64,000 bases of DNA. Origin: Flavipsychrobacter sp. (GTDB lineage Bacteria; Bacteroidota; Bacteroidia; Chitinophagales; Chitinophagaceae). Below the pieces are notes generated by a model that saw only the letters and a program-made list of their open reading frames with translations, had not been told where the DNA came from and made no database searches. The first letter of the stretch is position 1; every line of letters starts with the position of its first letter. Shown piece after piece: positions 56,607 through 62,856 of this stretch. Position numbers and translations under genes: made by a program. The stretch is taken from contig JAEUVZ010000008.1 in assembly GCA_016786665.1 (NCBI GenBank), positions 1 through 64,000 of the forward strand. Reading direction: 5' to 3'.

Positions 56607-57314
56607 ATGAGAAAGGTAGTACAGGCAGCTATGCTGTGTGGGATAATGTTATCATGTACCGTAGTTGCTACGGCGCAACGCAAGCCCAACGGCCCCGTGA
56701 AGATTCCGGCACCCAGGGATATTAACTACAAGAACAACTACAATAAGTATGTAACAGATGAGAGCAAGTTCAACAAGGCTTATCTCATAAACGCCATGCA
56801 CGTTACCCAGATGACGCAGCTAAACCCTACCATACGGGTGTACAACGCGATAGACGACAAGGGTAAGCGGCTGGTGGTGTACGTGCCGGTCAACAGCCTG
56901 CTTTTCGATTTGTGGGGCGATAAGCTTTACGCACAGAACATTACCGGTAAGGAAGGGGAAACAGATATGCCACCGGGTGAGGCTCCGGAGCCGGTATATC
57001 CTATAACATCAGACGATGCGCAGCGCTACATCTGGAACTATATAGGGAACAAGAAGATGGATGACATTAACTCGTTCGTGGTAAACATGCATACTCTGTA
57101 CCTGTATGTTAACCGGAAGAACAGCAGCGAATACATACGCTACTACCATGCAATGGACGACCATGGCCAGCGCTACCTGGTATGCTATGGGGTAGACCAG
57201 GAAGGTAAAGACATGAAAGATGTGCAATACCTGCTGGACCGCACCAGCCTGTGTACCAAAACGTGCGAGGGATATGAAATGCCCGCCCGCAAAACGGGGC
57301 TGGCCCGCCAATAG
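56607..57314 (+). CDS. Secreted two-repeat protein of an unrecognised family, member A
   Basis: 235 residues with a signal peptide (1-23). Two copies of one motif lie about 101 residues apart: IRVYNAIDDKGKRLVVYVPV (76-95) and IRYYHAMDDHGQRYLVCYGV (177-196), each preceded by an aromatic/Asn-rich helix-like stretch (YKNNYNKYV; RYIWNYIGN). The C-terminus has SLCTKTCEGYEMP. The second member of the family is at 59325, beyond the TPR membrane protein. There is no T9SS sorting domain or lipobox, so it is probably periplasmic or secreted. Not a family I know. Confidence 0.8.
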   Translation: MRKVVQAAMLCGIMLSCTVVATAQRKPNGPVKIPAPRDINYKNNYNKYVTDESKFNKAYLINAMHVTQMTQLNPTIRVYNAIDDKGKRLVVYVPVNSLLFDLWGDKLYAQNITGKEGETDMPPGEAPEPVYPITSDDAQRYIWNYIGNKKMDDINSFVVNMHTLYLYVNRKNSSEYIRYYHAMDDHGQRYLVCYGVDQEGKDMKDVQYLLDRTSLCTKTCEGYEMPARKTGLARQ

Positions 57315-57345
57315 CCTTTATAGAGGAATGAAAAATAAAGAACGC

Positions 57346-57373
57346 AAGCGGCGGCCCGGTGAGGCCGCCGCTT
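57346..57373. terminator. Hairpin terminator between convergent genes
   Basis: 11-bp perfect stem AAGCGGCGGCC/GGCCGCCGCTT with a 6-base loop, three bases beyond the stop of the TPR protein and 32 bp after the secreted protein A gene. Confidence 0.7.
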
Positions 57374-57376
57374 CAT

Positions 57377-59224
57377 TTAAGTGCCTGTTGGTGGTGCCGG
57401 CGTGGGTGCCGGGGGCGTGGGCTTTTCTTCCTGTGTTTTTTCTTTGTCGTGGGTGGGGGCTTTTTTACCGAAGAGCCCGCCCAGCCATTTACGGATGCTG
57501 AGCCGCGACGGGTCTATCATACGGTGATGTACCAGGTAGTGTATCACTTTTTCTTCCATCCAGTGGTGCAGTGGCAATAGCACGGCAATGAGCATTATCT
57601 TGAAAATCATGAACTTCCAGGGCTCGCCGTGGGTAAAGTGGTGAATCTTATGGTCGGCCAGCATAATGATGAACTCGAACAGGAAGATAAAGGAGAAAAA
57701 GCCCAGCGCTTTTATCACCACCTTCGGCATTTTCAGCGAGCCCAGCATAGCCAGTATGATGAAGGTGATAACAATGAGTATGCTCAGTCCCATATACTGT
57801 ATGTTGTGCCGGCGTTCGGTTGCTTGCTGTTCGCGTTCGGCCATCAGTTCGCGTTCACGGGCTTCGCTTTCCACCTCCAGCTTCAGCAGCTCTTCTTCCT
57901 GGTGCGCCATTTCGGCTTCGTGGTTATACTGCAGGTTCAGCTTGGCGTAGCGGTAGGCTTCTTCGGTTTTACCCTGGGCATAGGCCAGCGAGTCCAGCGC
58001 GTGCGATAGCTCGGTGAGGTAGGGTATGTACTGCGCCTTCTCGGCATAGTTGAAAGCTGTCACCAGTTTCTGCTGAGCTTCCTTTATGTTACCTCTGCGG
58101 GAAAGAAATTCTCCATAGCGTTTGTAGAAGTTGCTGGTGTAGATATCTCCTTTGGCTGTGGTTTTCAGGTTCTCCTCTGCCAGCATGTAATAGTATTCCG
58201 ATGAGTCGAGGCGGCCATGCGCCTCGCAGATAAACGCCTTCAGGCGGAAGTACAGGTTAGGGTTACTCTGTTCTATTTCATGCAGCGCATCCGGGTATTG
58301 CCGGGTGTATAGGTCGGCCAGTTCATCCAGCAGGTTATGGTTGATGAGGTAGGTGCGGTAAATGGAGAGGGTTCGGTCGGCGAGTTTCTTGTATTCGTGT
58401 CTATCGGAATAATCAAGTATTTCTCTGGTGAGTTTTTGCGCTTGTTTTTTCTCGTTGTTGTCGAATTGATAGGTGATCAGGTTTATGTTTAGCTTTACCA
58501 GTTGGAGCGAGTCCATCTCAGTAGACTGGAATAAAATGCTTCTTTGCTCGGCGACATATTCCTTGGCTTTCTCTCTATTATCAATTAAGTAATAGAATGA
58601 AGCTAGGTTTTGATAAGCCAGGTAAACGAGCTTCTTATTTTCTAATTGCCTGGACAAGTGTAGTGCATCTGTGTGCTTTTTAAATGCCTCAATTTTCTTA
58701 TTGTTCTTTTCCAGGCAATAGCCCATTAGTAGCATTGCCTTTACTGTTAGTTCTTGGTCGTTGCATTGGCTTGCATAGTAAAACGCCTGGCTAGCTGACT
58801 CCAAAGCCTGCCGTATATTGTAGTTAAACAAATGGTTTTTAGCTTCGGCCTGGTAGAAAAATGAATGCCATTTATTATCGTTCCGTTTACGGCTCAGTTC
58901 ACCCAGTTTCCTGACATACTCGGATGTTGAAACGGTGAAGTATTCCTCCTCTTTATCAAAGTACCAGTTGTATAGCTTTATTACTAGGCTATCCTGTACT
59001 CGTATATGAATATCTTCCAATGCAAGGTCCAGTACGCTATCTCGTTGGTCTAGGTGATTTTGTAAATCGTACTCGTCAGCTATGCGAATAAAAAGCTCAG
59101 ATTTTTCTGATGCGTTTTTCGATTTGTGTATTTTCTCCCATAGCGCATCGGTAGCGGTAGTTTGCGCTAACAGTCCAGTTGTATATACTAGTATTATTAA
59201 GAATGTGATAATTCGCGCAAGCAT
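57377..59224 (-). CDS. TPR protein with C-terminal membrane region
   Basis: 615 residues. Signal peptide (1-21), then about 400 residues of helix-turn-helix TPR-like repeats (for example YAEKAQYIPYLTELSHALDS and AQGKTEEAYRYAKLNLQYN), a coiled coil rich in Glu/Arg (VESEARERELMAEREQQA), three membrane helices (MGLSILIVITFIILAMLGSL, ALGFFSFIFLFEFIIMLA, FMIFKIMLIAVLLPLHHWME) and a Pro/Thr-rich tail. The layout is that of Bacteroidota TPR sensor proteins, but there is no kinase or DNA-binding domain after the helices; instead the helices and tail close the protein. It lies between the two unrecognised secreted proteins. Confidence 0.82.
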   Translation of the reverse strand: MLARIITFLIILVYTTGLLAQTTATDALWEKIHKSKNASEKSELFIRIADEYDLQNHLDQRDSVLDLALEDIHIRVQDSLVIKLYNWYFDKEEEYFTVSTSEYVRKLGELSRKRNDNKWHSFFYQAEAKNHLFNYNIRQALESASQAFYYASQCNDQELTVKAMLLMGYCLEKNNKKIEAFKKHTDALHLSRQLENKKLVYLAYQNLASFYYLIDNREKAKEYVAEQRSILFQSTEMDSLQLVKLNINLITYQFDNNEKKQAQKLTREILDYSDRHEYKKLADRTLSIYRTYLINHNLLDELADLYTRQYPDALHEIEQSNPNLYFRLKAFICEAHGRLDSSEYYYMLAEENLKTTAKGDIYTSNFYKRYGEFLSRRGNIKEAQQKLVTAFNYAEKAQYIPYLTELSHALDSLAYAQGKTEEAYRYAKLNLQYNHEAEMAHQEEELLKLEVESEARERELMAEREQQATERRHNIQYMGLSILIVITFIILAMLGSLKMPKVVIKALGFFSFIFLFEFIIMLADHKIHHFTHGEPWKFMIFKIMLIAVLLPLHHWMEEKVIHYLVHHRMIDPSRLSIRKWLGGLFGKKAPTHDKEKTQEEKPTPPAPTPAPPTGT

Positions 59225-59324
59225 TATCGAAAATTTAATTTTTGGATAAAATAGGTAAAAAAATTAGAAATGTGTGTTATATTGACATTCTTTAAATTTT
59301 AAACTCATTAAAATGCTCATAATT

Positions 59325-59966
59325 ATGAATAAGCTATTCTTTTGCTTCGTTGTGTCGCTTGGGTTAAGCTCGACTATTTACGGTCAGGCACTTCCTACCC
59401 CGAAGACGCCCGCGCAGATGCCTAAGGCTACGGCAATAAGCTACATTAATAATTACCAGAATACTATTAATAATTTCTTTGCCTATGGTTACCTACTAGA
59501 TATCGCTAAGGCAAAATCCATCAGCCCTACGGCAGTCAGGATATATAATGGGCGGATGAACAATTCACAAACGGTGCTGATGGTTCCGCTTAACTCAACT
59601 TATAAAGTGAACACAGGAGGTACCAACTATATGCAAAGTGATGCTTCTCTGTGTCCTAAAGTTTGTGATATAGCAGGTACCAGCGAGGCCTCGCAAGTGC
59701 CTGGTGGACAAGTCAGCAGTATGGTCAATTCCTGCATCGACTGCCGCGAGTACGAATCCGCCAATGCTGTGGTAGTGCATACGCCCACACTCACCAACCT
59801 GCAGAACGCTGGATTCACCCGGGTGCGTATCTACAATGGCATGGATGGCAGCGGCAAGCGCTATGTAGTGTATGTACCTATAGATGAGCGCGGGCAAGAG
59901 GTAGCTACCGATAATATGTTTGTGGGGGATAATACCTGTGTGCTCACCAACTGCAAGTATCCGTAA
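59325..59966 (+). CDS. Secreted two-repeat protein of an unrecognised family, member B
   Basis: 213 residues from the ATG at 59325, with a signal peptide (1-20). Repeats: VRIYNGRMNNSQTVLMVPL (71-89) and VRIYNGMDGSGKRYVVYVPI (167-186), 96 residues apart and related to those in the protein at 56607. Each repeat here is followed by a Cys pair (SLCPKVCD at 108-115; NTCVLTNC at 203-210), and member A has the same SLCxKxC after its second repeat. No membrane anchor or sorting domain. It is divergent from the TPR gene (100 bp between starts) and followed by a terminator. Confidence 0.8.
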   Translation: MNKLFFCFVVSLGLSSTIYGQALPTPKTPAQMPKATAISYINNYQNTINNFFAYGYLLDIAKAKSISPTAVRIYNGRMNNSQTVLMVPLNSTYKVNTGGTNYMQSDASLCPKVCDIAGTSEASQVPGGQVSSMVNSCIDCREYESANAVVVHTPTLTNLQNAGFTRVRIYNGMDGSGKRYVVYVPIDERGQEVATDNMFVGDNTCVLTNCKYP

Positions 59967-61317: not shown

Positions 61318-62856
61318 ATGGGATGTGGCAATTGCGGGTCTGGCGCTAGTGGAAAGCCAAATGGTTGCAAGAGTAACGGAGGATGTAGTACCGGCGGATG
61401 CAACCGCATGAATGTTTTCGATTGGCTAAGCGCATTACCCTTGCACGACAGTGCAAAACCGTACCCGGTAATAGAAGTGACGTTCAACAAAGGAAGCAGG
61501 AAGGACTTTTACCGTAATAATACCAACCACATACTGGAAAAGGGCGATTGGATAGCCCTGGAAGGTGTTAGTGGTTTTGACATAGGACAAGTTAGCCTCA
61601 CCGGCGAACTGGTAAAGCTCCAGATGAAAAAGTATGGGGTAGAAGACCAGCCATCGCTGAAACGTGTGTTGCGCCCTGCAACCGAGGAGGACATAGCTGT
61701 CTTTAACGAAAACAAAGCACGGGAAGCAGAAATGCTCATCCGCTCGCGCGCCATGGCCAAGCAGTACAACCTGGACATGAAGCTGTGCGAAGTGGAGATA
61801 CAGGCCGATGGAAAGAAGGCAACCTTCTTCTACACAGCCGATAGCCGGGTAGACTTCCGGGAGCTGATTAAAGGCTATGCGGGAGAATTTAAAGTAAAGG
61901 TGGAGATGCGCCAGATAGGTGCCCGCCAGGAGAGTGGCAAAGTGGGTGGTATCGGCTCGTGTGGCCGGGAGCTCTGCTGCTCTACGTGGCTGACCGATTT
62001 TAAATCGGTAAACACGACTGCGGCACGCTACCAGAACCTCTCTATTAACCAGACCAAATTATCGGGCCAGTGCGGGCGGCTGAAGTGTTGCCTGAACTAT
62101 GAGCTGGATACTTATATGGACGCGCTGCGGGTGTTCCCCGATAGTGCTGAGCACCTGGAAACGGTGAAAGGAAAGGCATACCTGCAGAAAAAGGATATAT
62201 TCCGGAACCTGATGTGGTACTCGTACCCCGACAGCAGCAAGCAGTACCCCATGACCATAGTACGGGTAAAGGAGATACTGGCGATGAACAAGCAGGGCCA
62301 GAAGGCCGATGAACTGCAACCGGTGGAACTGGAGCTGAGCAGCAGCAAGGCAGGTGCCAAGGTGGTAGACATGGGCTTTGTGAATGATGTGGGCCAGATA
62401 AGCCTGAAAGCCCTGGAAAAGAACAGCCGCAAGAAAAAGGGTGGCTCTAAAGGCGGTGGCCAGCAGAAGCCCGGCCAGCAGGCGCGTGGTGGCGGCAATC
62501 AGCCCAAACAAGGTGGTGGACAGCGGCCGCAACGCGACCAGCAGGCGAAGCAGGGTGGTGGCCAGCGGCAACAGGAACCCAAACAGGGTGGCGACCAGCA
62601 ACAACGCCCGCAAAGGGAACAGCAACCGAAACAAGGTGGAGAGCAACAGCGTCCGCAACGGGAGCGACAGCCCAAGCAGGGTGGGGAACAACAGCAACGC
62701 CCGCAGGGTAACAGGCCCCAACGCCCCCAAAGAGACCAGCAACTGCACCAGCGCCCGAAACACGGCGGTGGCACCAGCCAGCAAGGCGATGGCGGCGAAC
62801 AGCAAAGGCCCAGCGCCAACAGGCCGAATAACAGGCGGCCGAAGGAGAATCAGTAG
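61318..62856 (+). CDS. ricT: PSP1 domain protein, RicT-like, with Gln/Gly/Pro/Arg repeat tail
   Basis: 512 residues. A Cys/Gly-rich N-terminus (MGCGNCGSG ... CSTGGCN) precedes the PSP1 domain (about 45-290) with its two cysteine motifs GSCGRELCCSTWLTD and GQCGRLKCCLNYELD, the iron-sulfur ligands of RicT. In Bacillus RicT works with RicA and RicF on RNase Y-dependent mRNA processing; in Bacteroidota the role is less clear. The last 125 residues are low-complexity repeats of PKQGGGQ / QQRPQREQQ type, basic and unstructured, suggesting RNA binding. holB lies just upstream. Confidence 0.9.
   Translation: MGCGNCGSGASGKPNGCKSNGGCSTGGCNRMNVFDWLSALPLHDSAKPYPVIEVTFNKGSRKDFYRNNTNHILEKGDWIALEGVSGFDIGQVSLTGELVKLQMKKYGVEDQPSLKRVLRPATEEDIAVFNENKAREAEMLIRSRAMAKQYNLDMKLCEVEIQADGKKATFFYTADSRVDFRELIKGYAGEFKVKVEMRQIGARQESGKVGGIGSCGRELCCSTWLTDFKSVNTTAARYQNLSINQTKLSGQCGRLKCCLNYELDTYMDALRVFPDSAEHLETVKGKAYLQKKDIFRNLMWYSYPDSSKQYPMTIVRVKEILAMNKQGQKADELQPVELELSSSKAGAKVVDMGFVNDVGQISLKALEKNSRKKKGGSKGGGQQKPGQQARGGGNQPKQGGGQRPQRDQQAKQGGGQRQQEPKQGGDQQQRPQREQQPKQGGEQQRPQRERQPKQGGEQQQRPQGNRPQRPQRDQQLHQRPKHGGGTSQQGDGGEQQRPSANRPNNRRPKENQ
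62460..62800 (+). repeat. In-frame degenerate repeat in the ricT 3' end
   Basis: Repeats of about 48-51 bp encoding QQRPQRE(Q/R)QPKQGGE-type units, with more degenerate copies on both sides. All are in frame. Confidence 0.85.

Follow-up and report, generated by a model that had tools for sequence, protein, structure and literature searches.

Two apparently exported proteins carrying tandem copies of an unnamed Bacteroidota domain are probable partners of a TPR membrane protein in Flavipsychrobacter sp.

In the window, which is the whole analysed stretch of 64,000 nucleotides from Flavipsychrobacter sp., two proteins, A and B, flank a gene for a TPR membrane protein. Both are doubled versions of a domain found mostly beside membrane signalling genes, and they are therefore probably exported partners of the TPR protein. 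The assignment of A and B to this unnamed Bacteroidota domain family is firm. As to their role, we lean towards periplasmic sensory partners or protein ligands of a TPR signalling membrane protein. The features concerned are as follows.

56607..57314, + strand: protein A, 235 aa; signal peptide MRKVVQAAMLCGIMLSCTVVATAQ and two domain copies
56703..56945, + strand: A domain copy 1; profile match, 23.6 bits with the outgroup-only HMM
57003..57269, + strand: A domain copy 2, including the SLCTKTC pair at 57246-57266; profile match, 52.3 bits with the outgroup-only HMM
57377..59224, - strand: TPR membrane protein, 615 aa; signal peptide, TPR region, coiled coil and conserved three-helix C-terminal domain
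57527..57805, - strand: three-helix membrane domain (NIQY ... FLFEFI ... HGEPW ... PLHHWME); invariant columns in a 13-member alignment
59225..59312, no strand: divergent intergenic region between the TPR gene and B, 88 bp; head-to-head layout kept in all close TPR relatives
59313..59966, + strand: protein B, 217 aa; signal peptide and two domain copies; divergent to the TPR gene
59418..59666, + strand: B domain copy 1, including SLCPKVC at 59646-59666; profile match, 30.2 bits with the outgroup-only HMM
59697..59963, + strand: B domain copy 2, including CIDC at 59733-59744 and C209/C214 at 59937-59954; profile match, 40.3 bits with the outgroup-only HMM

The start of B is more likely at 59325 (MNK, as in the B homologues) than at 59313. 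A preliminary description of this DNA had presented A and B as related proteins, each with a signal peptide; they were indeed homologous over their whole length (26% identity, E 2e-13, BLASTP), and both N-termini looked export-like by eye and by hydrophobicity. It had also given each protein two copies of an R-x-Y motif, 96-101 residues apart. The spacing was confirmed, with motifs at residues 77 and 178 of A (101 apart) and 76 and 172 of B (96 apart), but the full motif is exact only in the first repeat of A and the second repeat of B, the other two being degenerate. The SLCxKxC pair noted behind one repeat per protein corresponds to SLCTKTC (A residues 214-220) and SLCPKVC (B residues 112-118), and the further Cys pair noted after the last repeat of B is C209/C214. 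Additionally, B has CIDC at residues 141-144, which was absent from that account. The open reading frames were arranged as described, with A and B on either side of a 615-residue TPR protein that has three C-terminal membrane helices and no output domain.

Each repeat corresponds to a domain of roughly 90 residues that is encountered mostly in one-domain proteins across Bacteroidota. An HMM built from sequences outside the window's genus only scored A at 76.9 bits and B at 69.7 bits and recovered both repeats in each, whereas the best of 400 shuffled copies reached 5.3 bits; the repeats are therefore not a product of chance. With a profile of 14 repeat units, matches came from 31 of the 98 family genomes, and with a broader one from 49 of the 295 genomes of the class. 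Most matches outside the genus were one-domain proteins of about 95-170 residues. A domain restricted to the genus, where alone BLAST saw relatives, was rejected once the domain profile was searched, and one weak match in the window's own genome (G000:C22, E 0.016) was dropped as chance-like. A, B and the domain matched no known family in Pfam, NCBIfam or PHROGs at meaningful scores and had no match among PDB sequences, and no member of a 79-domain alignment had a credible Pfam or NCBIfam match. No description of the domain or of the cassette presented below was found in open-access papers. Of the "unrecognised two-repeat family" first proposed, the absence of a name in Pfam and NCBIfam stands, but the repeat itself, once searched across Bacteroidota, turned out to define a widespread, phylum-wide and mainly one-domain family. 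Many one-domain members (L142-L160), without signal peptide, share the start MSFxGNEG and the end CPPxCGxxNxLNS; these ends could matter for processing or binding.

The AlphaFold2 model of B (pLDDT 80, pTM 0.75) comprised two b-a-b-a-b-b-b units, and Foldseek returned no match with E <0.001. In VIA-align, sliding clamps came out on top at Z 6.9 and 3.4 Å over 116 residues, within the chance/no-relative range. With Z <8 and a Foldseek E of at best 0.026, the resemblance to sliding clamps was not taken as a relationship. A single-domain model was weak (pTM 0.56) and had no fold match.

A CxxxC pair, usually CPxxC, follows the beta hairpin in 39 of the 64 domains outside the genus and in one repeat each of A and B; it is thus common but not universal in the family. 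Many of the domains bearing it sit in proteins without a signal peptide, and about 40% of the outgroup domains are without it, so that the disulfide suggested in the preliminary description is unlikely as a general role of the pair. In individual proteins the pairs may still form disulfides or bind metal, as suggested there. The Cys pairs and the tandem doubling would suit ligand capture, and A and B might be antagonists or decoys whose tandem exported domains take up a small ligand, perhaps via the Cys pairs, ahead of the TPR sensor; the TPR protein also has relatives without A/B partners. However, no ligand pocket and no solved-fold match were found, and CxxxC is missing from that sizeable fraction of domains, and we hold such a role to be very improbable.

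A single clade (95/89) in the domain tree held the first repeat of A together with those of the B proteins of the genus, which places the doubling before the split between A and B. For L175, the two domains grouped together elsewhere (99/100), so doubling took place more than once; the doubled members of L122/L123 and L135 were likewise placed outside the genus's group. L175 (genome G113), a two-domain member without signal peptide that has a large histidine kinase and a single-domain response regulator in its vicinity, represents an independent doubling. Between the window's genome (G000) and G001, identity was 71% for A, 48% for B and 54% for the TPR protein, and for A the pN of 0.18 against a pS of 0.74 indicates purifying selection.

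Members of the family are usually the first gene of a four-gene signalling cassette (52 of 69 members in the fetched loci), in the order small domain protein, 5-7-TM protein, HisKA_3 histidine kinase (HK) and LuxR-type response regulator (RR). Among 65 member loci, the TM gene was directly downstream (next gene, same strand, within 200 bp) in 41, TM-HK in 37 and TM-HK-RR in 34, counts that are approximate because neighbouring genes were called mechanically. The cassette genes often overlap in an operon-like manner. The TM protein has about 210 residues, 5-7 TM and no credible Pfam name, and the example kinases and regulators that were scanned matched HisKA_3/HATPase_c and Response_reg/GerE. 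The cassette kinases are short proteins in which a single N-terminal membrane helix is present and no sensory domain is recognised, which leaves the small protein and the TM protein as the obvious candidates for sensing.

In a reverse test starting from the TM gene at 57 loci (relatives and a phylum-wide sample), a member was upstream in 48 and a histidine kinase downstream in 52; because member-linked loci supplied the TM profile, this sample is not fully independent. Several of the nine misses had an upstream protein resembling a more divergent member. The TM gene was found in 61 of the 296 genomes of the phylum-wide sample, about a fifth, with up to 8 copies per genome. One such cassette is present in the window's own genome (L241, G000:C7, about 61.7 kb); it consists of a 173-aa lipoprotein-like member, the TM protein, a HisKA_3 histidine kinase and a LuxR-type response regulator. 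The TM-HK-RR cassette is apparently undescribed. Neither TM, HK nor RR gene lies directly downstream in the A/B neighbourhood, where the neighbour is the TPR gene.

The TPR protein of the window had no Pfam match, and TPR_12 was matched by 12 of its 13 aligned relatives. It had no HisKA/HATPase match and no output domain, and no regulator is adjacent. The 13-member alignment showed invariant FEFI, GEP and P-HH--E positions in the C-terminal three-helix part, which, judged by this conservation, is a conserved domain and not just an anchor. The domain is common to many shorter TPR proteins, with dozens to >100 first-look candidates in some genomes, which suggests a large unnamed family of three-helix TPR proteins. 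Two distant relatives (L055 in G023 and L056 in G031) adjoin gldD-, gldE-, ssb- and mutY-like genes and a cysteine-rich small protein. In NCBIfam, the sole match of the A, B and TPR set was that of the TPR protein to FimS (NF053520; E 0.0023, 16.3 bits against a cut-off of 600). The signal-peptide-like N-terminus and the helix count, judged from sequence appearance, agree with a periplasmic TPR region, and we would place this region of the window protein in the periplasm. In the FimS kinase, the periplasmic TPR region has been mapped as the sensing part (PMC11053733).

The preliminary description had proposed looking for homologues beside the TPR gene. A head-to-head member-TPR pair was found in 7 of 7 close loci (G000-G004, L051 and L140), in five flanking contexts, namely the window, G001, G002-G004, L051 and L140. 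In each of the five genomes of the genus (G000-G004), a member gene and the gene of a close TPR relative lie head to head, and in G000 and G001 protein A is also present, at the 3' end of the TPR gene. L051 is a second TPR paralogue of G004, 40% identical, with a divergent two-domain member beside it, and at L140 (G307, from another family) the TPR protein shares 35% identity with that of the window over 591 aa, the gene divergent to it encoding a one-domain member. The distant TPR relatives L052-L057 (22-29% identity) had no adjacent member, and the TPR protein can therefore work without one. Additionally, G148 and G192 each have two tandem exported members divergent to a TPR-TM protein with a class III cyclase domain at its end (PF00211, E about 1e-61). 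At L074/L176 (G107), a lipoprotein member directly follows a PSP1-domain-like gene; in the window, B is two genes from a PSP1 gene (61318-62856), possibly a coincidence with G107.

The genes could be together by descent or joint transfer and not act together, as might be argued from seven close loci only, six of them from one genus. Set against this, the pair was kept in five flanking contexts, one of them at a paralogous locus and one in another family, and the theme recurs with the TPR cyclase, which makes a shared neighbourhood without shared function quite improbable in our judgement.

The export pattern followed the genomic setting. By a heuristic hydrophobicity rule, all TPR-linked members (7/7) and all TPR-cyclase-linked members (4/4) were exported, against 11 of the 52 cassette-linked ones, and A and B also look exported; these export calls, like the topology calls, rest on hydrophobicity and signal-peptide appearance. 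Since most cassette-linked relatives are without a signal peptide, the family is not always extracytoplasmic. The TPR-linked members, from the genus and one other family, were mostly doubled as well as exported. This pattern agrees with a periplasmic TPR region, as in FimS (PMC11053733).

The role first proposed for A and B, as exported partners or ligands of the TPR protein, fits the conserved TPR linkage (7/7) and the export; direct A/B-TPR binding, the direction of control and the signalling outcome are what we infer. In the mechanism that we envisage, a doubled, signal-peptide-bearing version of the domain would work in this genus with a TPR membrane protein instead of a TM-HK-RR cassette. 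B, head to head with the TPR gene, and its duplicate A would bind the periplasmic TPR region, and this binding would determine which state the conserved three-helix membrane domain adopts, making A and B sensory subunits or protein ligands. The three-helix domain, with its FEFI, GEP and P-HH--E positions, would be the likely transmitter.

TPR proteins often act as scaffolds or chaperones. A and B might accordingly be surface or matrix proteins with a role in binding, adhesion or structure, and the TPR protein their export or assembly helper, not a signal receiver. The export of all TPR-linked members and the gliding- or secretion-flavoured surroundings of the distant TPR/three-helix relatives in G023 and G031 speak for such a helper. 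However, relatives of A and B are tied to histidine kinases, response regulators and cyclases and not to export machinery, and the Pfam search found no adhesion, binding or sorting domain, the C-terminal sorting domain of type IX secretion cargo included, so we rate the helper role as unlikely.

A broader possibility, which we put forward as speculative and rather unlikely, is that the small domain protein serves as a protein signal, or as an obligate sensory subunit, in an undescribed Bacteroidota system that spans the phylum, with a 5-7-TM receptor and a sensor-less kinase relay, and that this genus re-used a doubled, exported form as the ligand of a TPR receptor. If true, such an arrangement would amount to cell-surface or cell-cell signalling by means of a protein. 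With these results, a family that is common among Bacteroidota and nameless in Pfam and NCBIfam gains a place and a role open to testing, and a conserved sensory cassette of four genes comes to light, present in about a fifth of the phylum-wide genome sample. The TPR pairing of the window offers a simple system for testing direct binding, as partner and TPR region are expected in one compartment.

Four known systems invite comparison. DNA sliding clamps (PCNA, UL42, gp45) resemble the B model in overall arrangement, through duplicated alpha/beta units only, whereas B has about 8-12% identity to them at Z <8 and is exported. FimS-type TPR sensor kinases of Bacteroidota (NF053520; PMC11053733) share an N-terminal signal or TM segment, a TPR region expected to be periplasmic and then membrane helices; the window's TPR protein, in contrast, falls far below the 600-bit cut-off, has no kinase domain and has three conserved C-terminal membrane helices instead. 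Two-component cassettes of HisKA_3 (PF07730/PF02518) and LuxR-type regulators (PF00072/PF00196) have one-domain relatives of A and B as first gene, including L241, whereas A and B have two domains each, are exported and adjoin a kinase-less TPR protein, with no adjacent HK or RR. The TPR-TM-class III adenylate/guanylate cyclase (PF13424 and PF00211) of G148 and G192 carries a catalytic domain for output and shows no close sequence relationship to the window's TPR protein (E 0.049), but it is divergent to two exported members, which is the layout of the window.
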